From Acidobacteriota bacterium (GTDB lineage: Bacteria; Acidobacteriota; Thermoanaerobaculia; Thermoanaerobaculales; Thermoanaerobaculaceae): 42,522 nucleotides of DNA. Below the pieces are notes generated by a model. That model was not told the DNA's origin, searched no databases, and saw only the letters and a program-made list of their open reading frames with translations. Made by a program: the position numbers and the translations under genes. How positions within the stretch are numbered: the stretch's first letter is position 1; each line of letters starts with the position of its first letter. Positions 10,265-42,522 of the stretch are shown in pieces. The stretch lies in contig PMLC01000046.1 in the NCBI GenBank assembly GCA_003158745.1, positions 28,943-71,464 on the forward strand. The letters run 5' to 3'.

Positions 10265-10834
10265 TCAGAGCGTAACGCGGACTCCGGCACTGACGGCGTT
10301 GATGTCTACGTCGCGGAGCTTGTAGCGTTCCCACTCACCCAACACCGAGAACTTGCCGAAGTTGAACCGCAAACCCGCGCCATAGAACGGGTCGTGCCCA
10401 TGGTCGGTTCCGGCCACGAAATGCGGGTCGGTCACGGTGCCGGTGAGCGTCACATCGGTGCTCCAATACATGTAGCCGGCTTTCGCGTAGAGCGTGACCA
10501 GATCGCCGACCGGGATCCGGCCCGTGAGCGCAGCCGTCCCGGTTTTCGGGTCGTACCCCACTCGCGTGCTGCCTGCCGCCGAAGTAATCACGCCGTCGAA
10601 CTTGCCGAAGTTGACCCAGGCGGCCTCGACTCCGAGGAAGACAGGAAACTCATAGCCTAAGAAGAACTTGTACGAGTTCCGCGTTTGGTCGATGACCGTC
10701 GTGTTGATCGCCGCGTGACTCGCGGCGCCGCCAAGGTAGAAACCCTGCGCGGCCGCCGGTCGGCTCGCCCCAAGGCCTGCAACCAGGACACTCGCGCCAA
10801 GGAGAATCATCGGCGCCATCAGTTTCATCTTCAA
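10265..10834 (-). CDS. OmpA-like eight-stranded outer-membrane barrel protein
   Basis: A 189-residue protein: signal peptide (MAPMILLGASVLVAGLG, cleavage after AAA) and alternating strands typical of the small OmpA-type or opacity-protein barrels. Examples are SYKFFLGYEFPVFLGVEAAWVNFG, LVTLYAKAGYMYW, DPFYGAGLRFNFGKFSVLGEWERYK, and a terminal strand ending VTL. There is no peptidoglycan-binding OmpA C-domain. The start chosen is TTG at 10834, six bases after GGAGG. The duplicated copy of this leader at 42149 has GTG at the same position, which supports it. First gene after element b, heading the envelope cluster down to 7148. Confidence 0.87.
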   Translation of the reverse strand: MKMKLMAPMILLGASVLVAGLGASRPAAAQGFYLGGAASHAAINTTVIDQTRNSYKFFLGYEFPVFLGVEAAWVNFGKFDGVITSAAGSTRVGYDPKTGTAALTGRIPVGDLVTLYAKAGYMYWSTDVTLTGTVTDPHFVAGTDHGHDPFYGAGLRFNFGKFSVLGEWERYKLRDVDINAVSAGVRVTL

Positions 10835-10945
10835 CGTTGACCTCCATGCCCCGAGACGTGCGCATTCGGTGATGGGCCCGCACTTCCAACGAAGAAACCA
10901 GGTCCCACGATTCTCGTCGCACGCCTCCTTTCTCGGTCACCCACG

Positions 10946-11022
10946 AATCTAGTCCCTGTGGTGCTGTGCGGGATAGCGCATTTTGTACCCGGGATCGGAG
11001 CCGCAGATTAGGTAGGAACTAC
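10946..11022 (-). promoter_or_regulatory. Cassette element b: promoter of the OmpA-like operon
   Basis: Minus strand: box A GTAGTTCCTAC (11022-11012), 23 nt, box B GTACAAAATGC (10988-10978), 26 nt, and TAGATT (10951-10946). About 110 nt of 5' UTR lead to the TTG start at 10834. From box A through the UTR and into the signal-peptide codons (11022 down to about 10753) this DNA is closely similar to 41963-42232, so promoter, UTR and leader were duplicated as one piece. Confidence 0.8.
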
Positions 11023-26166: not shown

Positions 26167-26211
26167 GTAGTCTCTACCTGGTGGCAACGCTAGAATGCAG
26201 GTAGAAACTAC
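26167..26211 (-). promoter_or_regulatory. Cassette element g (diverged): two perfect dyads upstream of the DUF3494 gene
   Basis: Minus strand: box A GTAGTTTCTAC (26211-26201), 23 nt, and box B GTAGAGACTAC (26177-26167). Both are perfect GTAG-N3-CTAC dyads. No TAGATT follows at 25 nt. A TAAAAT lies at 26133-26128, 33 nt from box B, inside an AT-rich stretch, so the promoter spacing differs from the other copies. Confidence 0.65.
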
Positions 26212-27201: not shown

Positions 27202-27277
27202 GTAGTTCCTACCTAACTCTCGGCTTGACTCCCGGGTAGAAAGTACGCATCCCGATAGAGGGCCAGAACAGTAGATT
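27202..27277 (+). promoter_or_regulatory. Cassette element c: promoter before the methyltransferase operon
   Basis: Box A GTAGTTCCTAC (27202-27212), 23 nt, box B GTAGAAAGTAC (27236-27246), 25 nt, TAGATT (27272-27277). The leader TTCGAGATGTGCTCGGGAAAGG matches those of elements a and e and runs into an ATGAAACGCGT start identical to the first 11 bases of the BON gene. Confidence 0.82.
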
Positions 27278-27307
27278 CGAGATGTGCTCGGGAAAGGAAG
27301 GCATTCC

Positions 27308-27382
27308 ATGAAACGCGTCGCCCTCGTTCAGGGTGGTACTCTGCTCGGTGTCCCGGACAAGCTGCGACAGCCGCGAAGGTGA
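27308..27382 (+). CDS. Orphan 24-residue leader peptide (duplicated signal-peptide start)
   Basis: The frame starts at ATGAAACGCGT, directly after the conserved cassette leader and its GGAAAGGAAGG ribosome region. It encodes MKRVALVQGGTLLGV then a basic tail, and stops three bases before the methyltransferase ATG. The first 48 bases align without gaps to the BON lipoprotein start (41502 downwards); by hand count 32 of 48 match, including the GGTGTC block. So it looks like the start of an exported-protein gene whose body is gone. It may now serve only to load ribosomes for the next gene, or it may be unused. Translation is inferred from position and ribosome site. Confidence 0.5.
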   Translation: MKRVALVQGGTLLGVPDKLRQPRR

Positions 27383-27385
27383 GGC

Positions 27386-28204
27386 ATGACTGACTTGCGC
27401 GTGCGAGTTGAGGAACACAACCATCAGGACATGCCTGCGGGTGCTGTGCGCCGGGGACGACCAGCATCACATGGGTGCGGAGTTCTCCGGCGGGTGATGC
27501 GCCTGGCGTCAACGATAATCGCGATGGCTGGGTGGCGACTCGAGCACCTCAACGCGGTGTGGGTGACCGGGAGCGTCGCCTCCGTCTTCCTCGCCCACGT
27601 TCTCATCAACCGCGCCGACTGGCGACTTACTCTGCCCTACTTCCTCTTCACGCTCGTCTTCTACTACGGTGGAAACGCGGCGATTCTCAGATCAGACCTT
27701 CCCGCCCGCGCCATCGCTCGCCTCGGCGAGGAGCGCGCTTTCCGGGCGTACGAAACCCTGGCCGGACTCATGTTCCTCAACCAGGGACTGGGGGTCGGCT
27801 GCATGGCGGCGCTGCACGCTCCGAGGTTGGAGCAGGCGGTGCCCGCGCCTCTCGTTCTCGCCGCAGGTGTGGCGCTGTTCGTGGTGGGCCTGGTTGTCAA
27901 GCTGTGGGCCACGCTCACTGTGGGCGTGGACGTGTACTACTTCCGCGACATGTTCCTCGGGCGCCCGGTGGCCCCCATCTGTGACGGCGGACCCTATCGC
28001 TTCCTGCGCAACCCCATGTATTCGGTGGGGCAGCTCCAGGGATACGGTTATGCGCTCCTCTACGGCTCTCTCCCCGGTTTCGTCGCCGCTGGTGCGGGCC
28101 ACCTGCTCATCTACGCGTTCTACGTCATGGCCGAACGCCCGTTTGTGCGGAGAGCGTACATTGCGCCTTGCCCGGACCAGACGATCACATCGGCACCGCA
28201 ATGA
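27386..28204 (+). CDS. PEMT/ICMT-like integral membrane methyltransferase
   Basis: A 272-residue membrane protein with about five helices. The C-terminal catalytic region is typical of the phospholipid/isoprenylcysteine methyltransferase superfamily: GGPYRFLRNPMYSVGQLQGYG (about 209-229, the RHPxY-type SAM site read as RNPMY) and a later AERPFVRRAY with the conserved Glu. It may methylate a lipid amine or a thiol at the membrane. The ATG at 27386 follows AGGTGAGG and the leader stop; the first 37 residues look non-conserved, so Met38 (27497) or Met47 (27524) could be the real start. It overlaps the next gene by four bases (ATGA). Confidence 0.8.
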   Translation: MTDLRVRVEEHNHQDMPAGAVRRGRPASHGCGVLRRVMRLASTIIAMAGWRLEHLNAVWVTGSVASVFLAHVLINRADWRLTLPYFLFTLVFYYGGNAAILRSDLPARAIARLGEERAFRAYETLAGLMFLNQGLGVGCMAALHAPRLEQAVPAPLVLAAGVALFVVGLVVKLWATLTVGVDVYYFRDMFLGRPVAPICDGGPYRFLRNPMYSVGQLQGYGYALLYGSLPGFVAAGAGHLLIYAFYVMAERPFVRRAYIAPCPDQTITSAPQ

Positions 28205-30309: not shown

Positions 30310-30385
30310 GTATTTTTCACTCAGGGGACCGGTTCTGGCCCGGGTAGTAAGTGCGCTTGTCGATGCAGTTTGAGCGAACTACGGT
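30310..30385 (+). promoter_or_regulatory. Cassette element h (degenerate box A): promoter of the ECF sigma gene
   Basis: Box B GTAGTAAGTGC is at 30344-30354, with TACGGT exactly 25 nt downstream (30380-30385). At exactly the box A position, 23 nt upstream, is GTATTTTTCAC (30310-30320), which keeps 8 of 11 bases of GTAGTTTCTAC. Transcription should start near 30392, about 20 nt before the GTG start of the sigma factor. Confidence 0.68.
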
Positions 30386-30413
30386 GCGTTAGCTTGACAG
30401 TCTGGAGGCTGAC

Positions 30414-31082
30414 GTGAGCGAGCAAGGTGTCTGGAACTTCGATCTCGGAGAACTACCCTACCAAGCGCAGCTGCAGAAGACGGCACTCCGCCTTGCCCGC
30501 AGCGCGGATGGCGCAGAGGATCTGCTTCAGGACACCTACCTCAGAGCCTTCAGCCACTATGGGACCTTTCGCCCCGGCACCAACCTCAGGGCGTGGCTGT
30601 TTCGGATTCTCAAAAACACGTTCATCAACGAGTATCGGCGGCGCCAGAAGGCGCCGGCCCTGGTGGCCTTCGAGGACATCGAGGAGACTCTGGAGTCGGC
30701 GCTTGCGCCATGCCATGGATCGGTGACCCGCACTCCCGAGGACGAGGTCGTCGAAGCCTCGCTCGATTGCGAGGTGCAGCGGGCGTTGGCGGGACTCCCC
30801 CCCGCCTTCAGAGTCGTGGTCCTCCTCGCCGACATCGAGGGCCACGCCTACAGAGAGATCGCCACGATCCTCTCAATTCCGGTCGGGACCGTCATGTCGC
30901 GCCTCTATCGCGGACGCCGTCTTCTCGAACGGGCGCTGCTTTCCTTCGGTGTGCGCTACCACTACCTGATTCGCAAACCGCGCAGGCTGCGCTCGAGGGG
31001 CCTCGATATCGAGCGACTCTTCGGTGTCGCTGCCGCACCGGGCGGACATGGGAAGAACATCGGCCGGGTAGTTCCTACCTAG
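30414..31082 (+). CDS. ECF-type RNA polymerase sigma factor
   Basis: A 222-residue group 4 sigma factor. Region 2 (about 12-80) has AEDLLQDTYLRAFSHYGTF and GTNLRAWLFRILKNTFINEYRRR, close to the RpoE/SigR style. Region 4 (about 123-172) has LPPAFRVVVLLADIEGHAYREIA and PVGTVMSRLYRGRRLLERAL. A 45-residue basic tail follows, longer than usual. The start is GTG at 30414, five bases after GGAGG. No anti-sigma gene lies next to it, unlike most ECF loci. Its last codons (GRVVPT) are written by box A of element d, so the coding end and the next promoter are interlocked. Its promoter carries element h. Confidence 0.92.
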   Translation: MSEQGVWNFDLGELPYQAQLQKTALRLARSADGAEDLLQDTYLRAFSHYGTFRPGTNLRAWLFRILKNTFINEYRRRQKAPALVAFEDIEETLESALAPCHGSVTRTPEDEVVEASLDCEVQRALAGLPPAFRVVVLLADIEGHAYREIATILSIPVGTVMSRLYRGRRLLERALLSFGVRYHYLIRKPRRLRSRGLDIERLFGVAAAPGGHGKNIGRVVPT

Positions 31083-31143
31083 TCTGCGGCTTTGCTCCCG
31101 GGTAGAAAGTGCGCTTCACGGCGGCGGGCCGGAAGGCTACGTT
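31068..31143 (+). promoter_or_regulatory. Cassette element d: promoter before the coiled-coil protein and glucan synthase genes
   Basis: Box A GTAGTTCCTAC (31068-31078) lies inside the last codons of the sigma gene. Then 23 nt, box B GTAGAAAGTGC (31102-31112), 25 nt and TACGTT (31138-31143). The leader TTTGAGACGCGGTCCGGAAAGG matches elements a, c and e, and continues into a leader frame at 31174. Confidence 0.82.
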
Positions 31144-31173
31144 TGAGACGCGGTCCGGAAAGGGCGGTTCCCC

Positions 31174-31278
31174 TTGACACGTGCAGTCGTCGCAGCTGGA
31201 GATTTCCCGGTCGGTGTCGGGCCACGCCCCGACCGCGGATCGCGTTGGGAACCGGGCGAGGTGCCGCGGTGGACGTGA
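31174..31278 (+). CDS. Orphan 34-residue leader frame (duplicated signal-peptide start, TTG)
   Basis: TTG at 31174 stands exactly where the ATG of the other cassette copies stands. The 34-codon frame begins LTRAVVAAGDFPVGVG. Its first 48 bases match the BON lipoprotein start at 33 of 48 positions by hand count, including CGGTCGGTGTCGGG. The stop (31276-31278) overlaps a GTG at 31275 (GTGA) that is in frame with the next gene. As at 27308, the body of the exported gene is missing and the leader now ends at the start of an unrelated gene. Whether it is translated is not known. Confidence 0.42.
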   Translation: MTRAVVAAGDFPVGVGPRPDRGSRWEPGEVPRWT

Positions 31279-31859
31279 ACGATCGCATCCGCTGGGAAGT
31301 GCAATGGCACCCCGCCAACGGCGCCAGGATCCGTCGCCTGAGGATCACCTCGCGCGGCGTCCGGCGCCTGATCTTCGCTCTCGGCATCGTCGTTTGGGTC
31401 GTCCTCGCCGGCGGTTTGCTGGCCGGTTTCGAGGGGCTTCTGGCCCGCTCCGCAATCGACTCGGCAAGGCGCCAGAACACGGCCCTGATGGTGCAGCAGG
31501 AAACCTTGCGCGAGCAGGCATTCGACCTGGCCGTGCGGTTGTCCGAGGAAATCGAGCGGGGACGCGGGACGGCCCGATCGGCCGGCGTTCCGGGCCATGC
31601 CTGGGAAGGTCGCCGCCCCCGCCCGCCGGCGAGAGACGCAGGGAGCGATACCATTCTTGCCTGGCTTTCCGAGCAGGGTGCACGGTTGGAAGCGGTCGGG
31701 AACGAACTGGCGGCGGCCCGGGCCGAGGTGGGATCGAAGCAAGCGTCCGTCCCGGTCCCTGCAGCCATAGGGATCGTGCCCGCGGGCAACGCGGCGATGC
31801 TCCAGGTGGCGGAGTTGGGGTCGGGCAAGCGACAGGAAGCGGCGCCGGCGAAGCGCTGA
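31269..31859 (+). CDS. Membrane-anchored coiled-coil protein, like an M23 peptidase N-terminus without the peptidase
   Basis: A 196-residue protein. A short basic cytoplasmic start (RIRWEVQWHPANGARIRRLRI) is followed by one membrane helix (LIFALGIVVWVVLAGGLLAGF), a coiled coil (about 60-105), a Pro/Arg-rich linker, and a second short coiled coil (AWLSEQGARLEAVGNELAAARAEV). This layout is that of the N-terminal part of membrane-anchored M23 (LytM-type) peptidases, but the HxxxD/HxH peptidase domain is absent. It may be a truncated gene or an adaptor. The start is GTG 31269 (GAGG upstream) or GTG 31275, overlapping the leader stop. It sits 51 bases before the glucan synthase start and is probably in its operon. 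Confidence 0.65.
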   Translation: MDVNDRIRWEVQWHPANGARIRRLRITSRGVRRLIFALGIVVWVVLAGGLLAGFEGLLARSAIDSARRQNTALMVQQETLREQAFDLAVRLSEEIERGRGTARSAGVPGHAWEGRRPRPPARDAGSDTILAWLSEQGARLEAVGNELAAARAEVGSKQASVPVPAAIGIVPAGNAAMLQVAELGSGKRQEAAPAKR

Positions 31860-40953: not shown

Positions 40954-41502
40954 CTAGTACTTCATGGTGCCGACGAGGAGCTCGTTGTGAACGTCCTTGA
41001 CGCCCTTGGTGTCGCGCGCGACCGTCTCCGCCATGCTCTTGATCTTCTCAGAGCTGACGCGGCCGATCAGCGTCACGACCCCCTGCGAGGAACCCACGTC
41101 AATCTCCCCGGTCTTGATCTCGGAGATTGCGATGAGCTTCGCCTTGACCTTCGAGCTGATCATCACGTCATCGATCCAACTGCCGACCGTCCTCTCCCCA
41201 ACCGTGAGGTTGTTCATGACACCTTCCACACCCTCCGTGCGCCACGCGACGCGCGCGGCCTCCTGGCGGGCCTGCTCCGTGTCCACCACGCCGGTCAGGT
41301 ACACGACGCCCTCACGGGTTTCGACGTCCACCTCGCGCGCCTTCACGTTGTCGTTGGCCTCCAGCGACGCCTGGATCACCGATGTGATCCCCGAGTCCGC
41401 ATGCCGCGTTGCCTTGGGCACCATCGGGGAGCCGCACCCGGCGAGCGCCAGCAGCCCGACACCGACCAGGGAGCCTGCCACCACGGCGAATACGCGTTTC
41501 AT
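40954..41502 (-). CDS. BON-domain lipoprotein (OsmY-like, two BON domains)
   Basis: A 182-residue lipoprotein: signal peptide with lipobox LAGC (Cys23). Two BON domains follow, about 38-105 (TSVIQASLEANDNVKAREVDVETREGVVYLTGVV) and 112-178 (SKVKAKLIAISEIKTGEIDVGSSQGVVTLIGRV). BON proteins of the OsmY/DolP type bind phospholipid membranes and help outer-membrane integrity and osmotic stress survival. The ATG at 41502 follows GAGAAAGGACGG in the cassette leader. It is directly under element e. The signal-peptide codons are the best intact match for the orphan leaders at 27308 and 31174. Confidence 0.92.
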   Translation of the reverse strand: MKRVFAVVAGSLVGVGLLALAGCGSPMVPKATRHADSGITSVIQASLEANDNVKAREVDVETREGVVYLTGVVDTEQARQEAARVAWRTEGVEGVMNNLTVGERTVGSWIDDVMISSKVKAKLIAISEIKTGEIDVGSSQGVVTLIGRVSSEKIKSMAETVARDTKGVKDVHNELLVGTMKY

Positions 41503-41532: not shown

Positions 41533-41608
41533 AACCTAGTCCTCCGATCCCTCGCCGGGAAGAGCGCTTACTACCCAGGAGCAGGGCCGCGAGGTGGGTA
41601 GAAACCAC
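41533..41608 (-). promoter_or_regulatory. Cassette element e: promoter of the BON lipoprotein gene
   Basis: Minus strand: box A GTGGTTTCTAC (41608-41598), 23 nt, box B GTAGTAAGCGC (41574-41564), 25 nt, TAGGTT (41538-41533). The leader TTTGAGACACGTTCGAGAAAGG leads directly to the ATG at 41502. It is a full member of the cassette family whose signal-peptide gene is intact. Confidence 0.8.
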
Positions 41609-41962
41609 GGAACTCTCCACTCTAGACAAGACGGTGTGTCTCGCCTGAATGGCTGGGAATCTGAGTCGAATCGGCTCACGTCAGGTCTTCGGGGAGTGTG
41701 ACGCTGCCTGGCGAGGTGCTCCAGGTCGTCGCCGTCGTCGGGCGGCGCGGTCACCAAGTTGTCCATCGAGACCTCACCGAGGCGCGGTTTGAGGCGAAAT
41801 GCGGGCTGTCCGGCCACGGGCCCGAAGTGGCGGGAGTTTGGTGGAGGCTGTGTGTCCTCTCCAGCAGCGATGTCGCAATGACCTCGCAAGTCTTTGTGAC
41901 GCCCCGGCTGGCATACGCGCGTGCGCTCCTCGGAAGACGACAGAGGTTCGGACACCGGCTGT
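41609..41962. other. Spacer between divergent cassette elements e and f, no gene seen
   Basis: About 350 bases lie between two divergent promoters. Frames on both strands are open for 100-140 codons but have no start signal, domain or consistent codon pattern. I see no structural RNA. Confidence 0.4.
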
Positions 41963-42037
41963 GTAGTTTCTACCTAATCCGCGGCTCTCATCTCGGGGGA
42001 AAATGCGCTATCCCGCACAGCACCAAGAGACTAGATT
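41963..42037 (+). promoter_or_regulatory. Cassette element f: duplicated copy of the OmpA-like gene's promoter, before the PRC-barrel gene
   Basis: Box A GTAGTTTCTAC (41963-41973), 22 nt, box B GGGGAAAATGC (41996-42006, worn), 25 nt, TAGATT (42032-42037). From box A to about 42232 the sequence follows element b, its UTR and the OmpA-like signal peptide closely (shared runs include ATGCGCTATCCCGCACAGCA). Box B is degraded, so response to the activator may be weaker. Confidence 0.78.
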
Positions 42038-42148
42038 CGTAGGCGGGTGAGAAGGAAGGCACGCCACGAGAGTCGTGGGACTTGGTTCCTTCGTTGGGAC
42101 TGTCGGCTCATTACCGAAGGCGCACATCTCGGGGCACGGAGGTGAGCG

Positions 42149-42310
42149 GTGAAGACGAACCTGATGGCACCGGTGAGCCTCCTTGGCGCGATTGCTCTGG
42201 TTGCAGGGCCTGGGTCAAGCCGACCGGCGGCAGGGCGGGCGCCGGAGGCCAGAGCTGCGGCCGGGGACAGCACCCTTCGACAAAGGAGGATGCGATGCTC
42301 CGGAGCATGA
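42149..42310 (+). pseudogene. Decapitated paralogue leader of the OmpA-like barrel gene
   Basis: GTG at 42149, six bases after GGAGG, opens a 53-codon frame. Its first 28 residues match the OmpA-like signal peptide (MAPxxLLGAxxLVAGxGxSRPAA). After 42232 the match ends and the frame runs into unrelated basic sequence, stopping at 42308-42310, inside the PRC-barrel gene that begins at 42295. The barrel-coding body has been lost. The remaining leader may still be translated and coupled to the PRC-barrel start. Confidence 0.7.
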
Positions 42311-42522
42311 AGGATCTTCACGGGTTCACGATCGGCGCCACCGATGGGGACATCGGGACCGCCCAGGAGTGCTACTTCGACGATGTGAGCTTCACGGTGC
42401 GCTACGTCGTGGTCGATACGGGAACGAAGCGGATGACCCACGAGGGGTGGCTTGTGGAACGCAAGGTGCTCCTCTCGCCGATCGCCGTCCGTGCGATCGA
42501 CTGGGAGGACAAGCGCATCGAG
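42295..42522 (+). CDS. PRC-barrel domain protein (partial, runs off the window)
   Basis: At least 76 residues, open at the right end. The start MLRSMKDLHGFTIGATDGDIG, followed by CYFDDVSFTVRYVVVDTG and ERKVLLSPIAV, is typical of bacterial PRC-barrel proteins that often have two such domains and accompany stress genes. AGGAGG lies five bases before the ATG at 42295. It overlaps the end of the duplicated OmpA-type leader frame, so element f is its probable promoter. Confidence 0.9.
   Translation, partial: MLRSMKDLHGFTIGATDGDIGTAQECYFDDVSFTVRYVVVDTGTKRMTHEGWLVERKVLLSPIAVRAIDWEDKRIE

Follow-up and report, generated by a model that had tools for sequence, protein, structure and literature searches.

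In the genome of an uncultured Acidobacterium of the Thermoanaerobaculia lineage (G000), the 5' region of an OmpA-like beta-barrel gene is duplicated ahead of an unrelated PRC-barrel gene, and cassettes of the same kind stand ahead of further genes, both here and in a sister species. The arrangement was probably produced by promoter propagation with a coding tail, an old and repeated process which would have proceeded by conversion-like replacement within one regulon. The window, i.e. the whole stretch of 42,522 nucleotides that was analyzed, lies on contig C106.

Positions 41963-42239 were homologous to 11022-10744 of the minus strand, with divergence past about 42239. Self-comparison gave an ungapped match of 214 nt at 80% identity (10744-10957 versus 42026-42239), which was lengthened by gapped alignment to run from about 41950, just 5' of box A, to about 42232-42239, at signal-peptide codon ~28. 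In a search of the whole genome the cassette matched the barrel at 81% over about 296 bp (E = 2.6e-74), and the duplication is therefore far beyond chance. All three comparisons show that the duplication described in the initial annotation is real, although "almost base for base" was too strong a description, since about one base in five differs and small gaps are present. The parts that it listed, namely the boxes, the -10 element, an untranslated region (UTR) of about 110 bases (here about 111), the ribosome site and ~28 signal-peptide codons, were all recovered. The abrupt stop after ~28 codons was likewise found; the PRC-barrel gene starts 55 bases further on instead of the 60 claimed. The observation is confirmed, while its interpretation, promoter capture, is partly supported.

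On the plus strand, the copy is preceded by a PRC-type region (41928..41962) which tracks PRC loci and not the barrel. Box A (GTAGTTTCTACC, 41963..41974), which is common to 35 aligned sites and profile R1, is followed by a degenerate box B that is one base shorter (GGGGGAAAATGCGCT, 41995..42009) and, 20 bases past it, by the -10-like element ACTAGATT (42030..42037), the spacing of which is near-constant across sites. The 5' UTR (42038..42148) is homologous to that of the barrel, its halves being 73% and 82% identical, and includes GGAGG at 42138-42142. A GTG codon at 42149 opens an orphan leader ORF (42149..42310, 53 aa), a stub of the barrel signal peptide with ~28 barrel-homologous codons, which overlaps the start of the PRC-barrel gene (42295) by 16 bases. 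Between the barrel-homologous codons and the gene lies a PRC-type tail (42240..42294) which contains the PRC gene's own Shine-Dalgarno sequence, AAAGGAGG, at 42282-42289. The PRC-barrel gene itself (42295..42522, plus strand) is truncated because contig C106, and with it the window, ends there (contig position 71464); a full-length homolog on contig C137 encodes 257 aa with a PF05239 match and two PRC stretches. A small hairpin in the UTR (e.g. CCACGA-GAG-TCGTGG) looked conserved by eye only, and no Rfam match to a known RNA element was obtained anywhere in the window.

The intact OmpA-like beta-barrel gene, a relative of the donor, occupies 10265..10834 on the minus strand (PF13505, PF01389), and its promoter and UTR occupy 10835..11022, with box A at 11022-11011 and the -10 element at 10953-10946. 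It is the single intact copy in the genome, and the rest of the barrel gene is missing from the duplicate, as had been stated. Within the genus one intact barrel was found per genome where the barrel is present, so the barrel body is not hidden near the stub.

The copied region carries a predicted promoter in which the spacing of the boxes and the -10 element is conserved. The element consists of GTAGTTYCTACC, 21 bases, GGTAGAAAGTGCGCT, about 20 bases and ACTAGATT, and box B is similar to box A read as its reverse complement. Of the 148 genomes of the class, 6 had the exact two-box pattern, with zero occurrences in the reversed control. By profile search, 18 sites were identified in this genome, 12-20 in each of G002, G003 and G004, five in G005, zero in four other members of the genus and, in another genus, 12 within a single 33-kb stretch (G125:C91). 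The window sites are 7047(-), 11022(-), 26211(-), 27202(+), 30310(+), 31068(+), 41608(-) and 41963(+), and further sites in this genome lie on contigs C15, C32, C41, C50, C105 and C137. Judged from their sequence, the sites mark an apparently undescribed Thermoanaerobaculia regulon. Given their clustering in another genus and their lack in four members of this genus, the regulon looks like a transferable stress island. Literature searches with the core words of box A as a binding site gave unrelated papers only and, in the papers covered, no description of the motif, and those on Thermoanaerobaculia/ECF regulons gave nothing on point.

The products encoded at or near the sites include BON, ice-binding and OmpA-like proteins, with YtxH and DUF3300 genes nearby, and from these product families the role of the regulon is probably in envelope or desiccation stress. 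An ECF sigma factor gene with a degenerate promoter of the same type ahead of it (30310..31082, plus strand; Sigma70_r2/r4_2; profile match at C106:59250, E = 2.8e-4) is a possible autoregulated controller of the island, and its degenerate element was found in four genomes. The nearest NCBIfam model for this sigma factor is SigH_actino, below cut-off. Ahead of the ice-binding protein gene, window positions 26167-26211 form a near-perfect palindrome of the two boxes, and the counterpart on G003:C189 shows the exact pattern on both strands. Other sites stand ahead of tiny hydrophobic proteins, 27-30 aa long (MSTTTLIIVIVVLVLLFGGGG...) and conserved between species (G000:C41:10687(-), G000:C105:2293(+), L143:4146 and L146:17843(-)), or ahead of a conserved ORF of about 170-213 aa (L039 4910(+), L144 16568(+) and L044 2065(+)).

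Cassettes of promoter, UTR and stub were found six times outside barrel genes: ahead of three PRC genes (window, C137, C32) and two VOC (glyoxalase-like) genes (C106 at 14373 and 20373) in this genome, and ahead of one PRC gene in the sister species G003. The genomes all have the appearance of MAGs, and of the three PRC copies in this genome two are situated at contig ends. The G003 cassette is syntenic, divergent from a BON and YHS pair, and the PRC gene behind it has an internal deletion and an in-frame fusion with the stub. The search for the same junction in relatives, proposed with the initial annotation, was therefore positive. The stubs are about 73-88% identical in pairs, and a single fresh capture, as first supposed, does not agree with six such cassettes; a single recent duplication is ruled out by the further copies and the sister-species copy. 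The short box B, which had been read as decayed in the copy, also occurs at the C137 PRC, VOC2 and G003 PRC cassettes and at the intact G005 barrel, and is an old promoter allele. In two cassettes (L032 478(-) and L015 11374(+)) nearly the same 60-85 UTR bases have been lost between short direct repeats (GAAGGCGC), apparently independently.

Stub-less PRC orthologs, 80-81% identical, were identified in G002 and G004. They have two boxes and a -10 element followed by a short UTR to the start codon, with a -10-to-start distance of 77 bases in G002 and 54 in G004, and a diverging site of the same kind is found on the opposite flank (ahead of BON in G002). Since these two sisters possess the same two-box promoter without a stub, the PRC-barrel gene was probably in the regulon beforehand, and its membership need not stem from the barrel; the earlier idea that the gene gained its regulation by this event is not upheld. 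In G002 and G004 a VOC gene follows about 40 bases downstream of PRC, forming a PRC-VOC pair. In the VOC copies of the present genome the stub is joined to sequence resembling the PRC-VOC intergenic region of the sisters, and these copies consequently look like operon copies having lost PRC.

The similarity of the window PRC locus changes from segment to segment. Over the 36 columns 5' of box A it is 75% identical to the stub-less G002 PRC, 72-75% to the C137 PRC and VOC1 loci, and 53% to the barrel. From box A to the -10 element it is 90% identical to its own barrel and 68% to the G002 PRC, and in the stub segment 83% to the barrel. After the stub, it is 77-79% identical to the C137 and C32 PRC copies and 40% to the barrel. 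The segments compared are short, spanning 36-82 columns. Between G000 and G003 the promoters of the barrel orthologs are 84% alike, and against this value 68% to a PRC ortholog and 90% to a paralog do not fit simple descent. Upstream similarity thus conflicts with the relationships of the genes, over short tracts: the promoter is nearer to its own barrel, and the PRC coding start is orthologous. Such a mosaic would be expected if a barrel 5' tract had replaced a PRC promoter.

A second class of stubs was traced to another donor type, the BON lipoprotein gene (40954..41502, minus strand; PF04972), which diverges from the PRC-barrel locus and has its own regulon promoter starting at 41608(-). 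A regulon promoter with a 24-aa stub (MKRVALVQGGTLLGV...) occupies 27202..27385 on the plus strand, ahead of a PEMT gene (27386-28204, plus strand; PF04191), and the stub matches the BON gene start (MKRVFAVVAGSLVGV) at 32 of 48 bases. A similar cassette with a TTG-start stub (MTRAVVAAGDFPVGVG, 31068..31268, plus strand) precedes a hypothetical gene of 196 aa (31269-31859), for the product of which no Pfam match was obtained; here the agreement with the start of the BON gene is 33 of 48 bases. For comparison, unrelated pairs tabulated alongside reached about 13-24. G003, G004 and G005 also have the PEMT stub, and it can be traced in G125. With BON-type stubs at both the PEMT and the hypothetical gene, signal-peptide codons have been dragged along with a promoter from at least two donors.

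The order of events can be told in a different way. Possible, if rather unlikely, is a history in which the stub cassette was ancestral to the PRC-VOC operon, the barrel having been copied upstream and its body deleted, with separate losses of the stub in G002 and G004. The unequal UTR lengths of these two stub-less loci are as independent deletions predict, and elsewhere (C32, VOC2) the UTR pieces that were lost are bordered by short direct repeats. In the promoter tree the window and G003 PRC promoters group together (90/89), whereas rpoB places G003 as sister to G002, so the history of the stub needs losses or transfer: a single gain would have to be combined with two losses (in G002 and in G004) or with movement of the locus into G003, and the rpoB placement also allows for an ancestral stub with two losses. 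Under plain descent, however, the closeness of box A to -10 to the barrel of the same genome and not to the stub-less ortholog would be unexpected, and a remnant of the barrel body was not recognised. The promoter and stub trees are mostly unresolved and the tracts short, for which reason the direction and order of events are not firmly fixed.

It is improbable that the stub is a working leader peptide that controls PRC or VOC translation by export or by translation coupled through an overlapping stop. All five stubs of this genome are open, and the stop overlaps the ATG in the VOC copies (ATGA) and lies 16 bases into the gene in the PRC copies. However, with this base composition, 69-92% of simulated copies keep the frame open by chance at 5-20% change, and frame conservation was accordingly rejected as proof of function. 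Changes at the three codon positions of the five stubs (22 codons, summed over pairs) were 24/73/42, as against the coding pattern of 28/19/44 in the barrel signal peptides, i.e. there is no bias against amino-acid change. Charged residues interrupt the hydrophobic core in four of the six stubs (C137, C32, VOC1 and VOC2), the best-preserved being those of the window and G003, and the PRC stubs are entirely different from the VOC stubs in their C-terminal parts. With charges in four of six cores and a relaxed codon-position pattern, a conserved functional signal or membrane segment was not found in the stubs. In G003 the comparable stub at PEMT carries a frameshift, and in G125 it lacks its start. 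Most simply, the stub would be debris, a decaying upstream ORF without conserved peptide function. Very improbable, too, is the broader proposal in which the stub is no debris: new genes would join the regulon by receiving a copy of a complete expression module (promoter, UTR, strong start and secretory leader), and the leader ORF would couple translation or envelope-secretion status to synthesis of PRC and other products. Identification of the cassette as a mobile element, for instance a promoter-bearing MITE, is scarcely credible: dispersed copies of similar length do occur in one genome, but inverted repeats are absent from 41860-42310 and the copies are joined, in coding orientation, to genes of one ancestral operon and not to random targets. 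An assembly or binning artefact is equally hard to credit. The assembly is fragmented, and C106 (window 42499-42522) and C32 (L032 1-24) terminate within PRC in one and the same 24-base run, an assembly branch point; nevertheless, the join between stub and PRC is internal to contigs, recurs in three copies that are about 80% alike and occupies the syntenic place in another species, which also answers the assembly error named with the initial annotation as a possible refutation.

Under promoter propagation with a coding tail, the barrel promoter, together with the 5' UTR, the ribosome site and the ~28 initial codons, would have been copied to the front of a PRC-barrel gene whose own promoter was of the same regulon beforehand; the likeliest route is ectopic recombination, with a conversion-like tract, between promoters that already resembled each other. 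The PRC-VOC operon may later have been multiplied, with loss of PRC from two copies leaving the stub directly ahead of VOC. The PRC product would be translated from its own ribosome site, the stub remaining as an upstream ORF in decay, and the BON lipoprotein 5' end would likewise have been copied ahead of the PEMT and hypothetical genes.

Promoter propagation in prokaryotes, which Matus-Garcia, Nijveen and van Passel are said to have described in 2012, reportedly involves duplication within a genome of upstream regions with promoters, ahead of non-homologous genes. The present case is alike in that barrel, PRC and VOC genes share a cassette and their products belong to unrelated Pfam families. 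It differs in that the tract includes the donor start codon and 15-28 signal-peptide codons, and in that one regulon is involved, with a promoter of the same regulon replaced at PRC. In secretion-monitor leader peptides of the SecM, VemP and MifM type, a short signal-peptide ORF directly precedes another gene; the stub shares this position, but unlike them it has no conserved peptide and in most copies has lost the hydrophobic core. In horizontal regulatory transfer or regulatory switching, as outlined in PMC5890482 (after Oren et al. 2014), recombination swaps the upstream region and the gene is kept, as would be the case here; the exchange described there is between strains and orthologous genes, whereas here it would be between promoters of different genes in one regulon. 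Deletion-born gene fusions, as treated in PMC12803068, join a 5' gene fragment to another gene, and the in-frame fusion in G003 is similar; a deletion between adjacent barrel and PRC genes is, however, not supported as the origin of the junction.

Accounts of how regulons grow generally rest on point changes in binding sites. In the present case the signal-peptide stubs left behind show the way in which new genes join a regulon, and the dragged coding residue records the donor, the extent and partly the order, so that recruitment by copying becomes traceable across sister species. The stubs are also a warning that short signal-peptide-like ORFs ahead of genes may be copying debris and not leader peptides.
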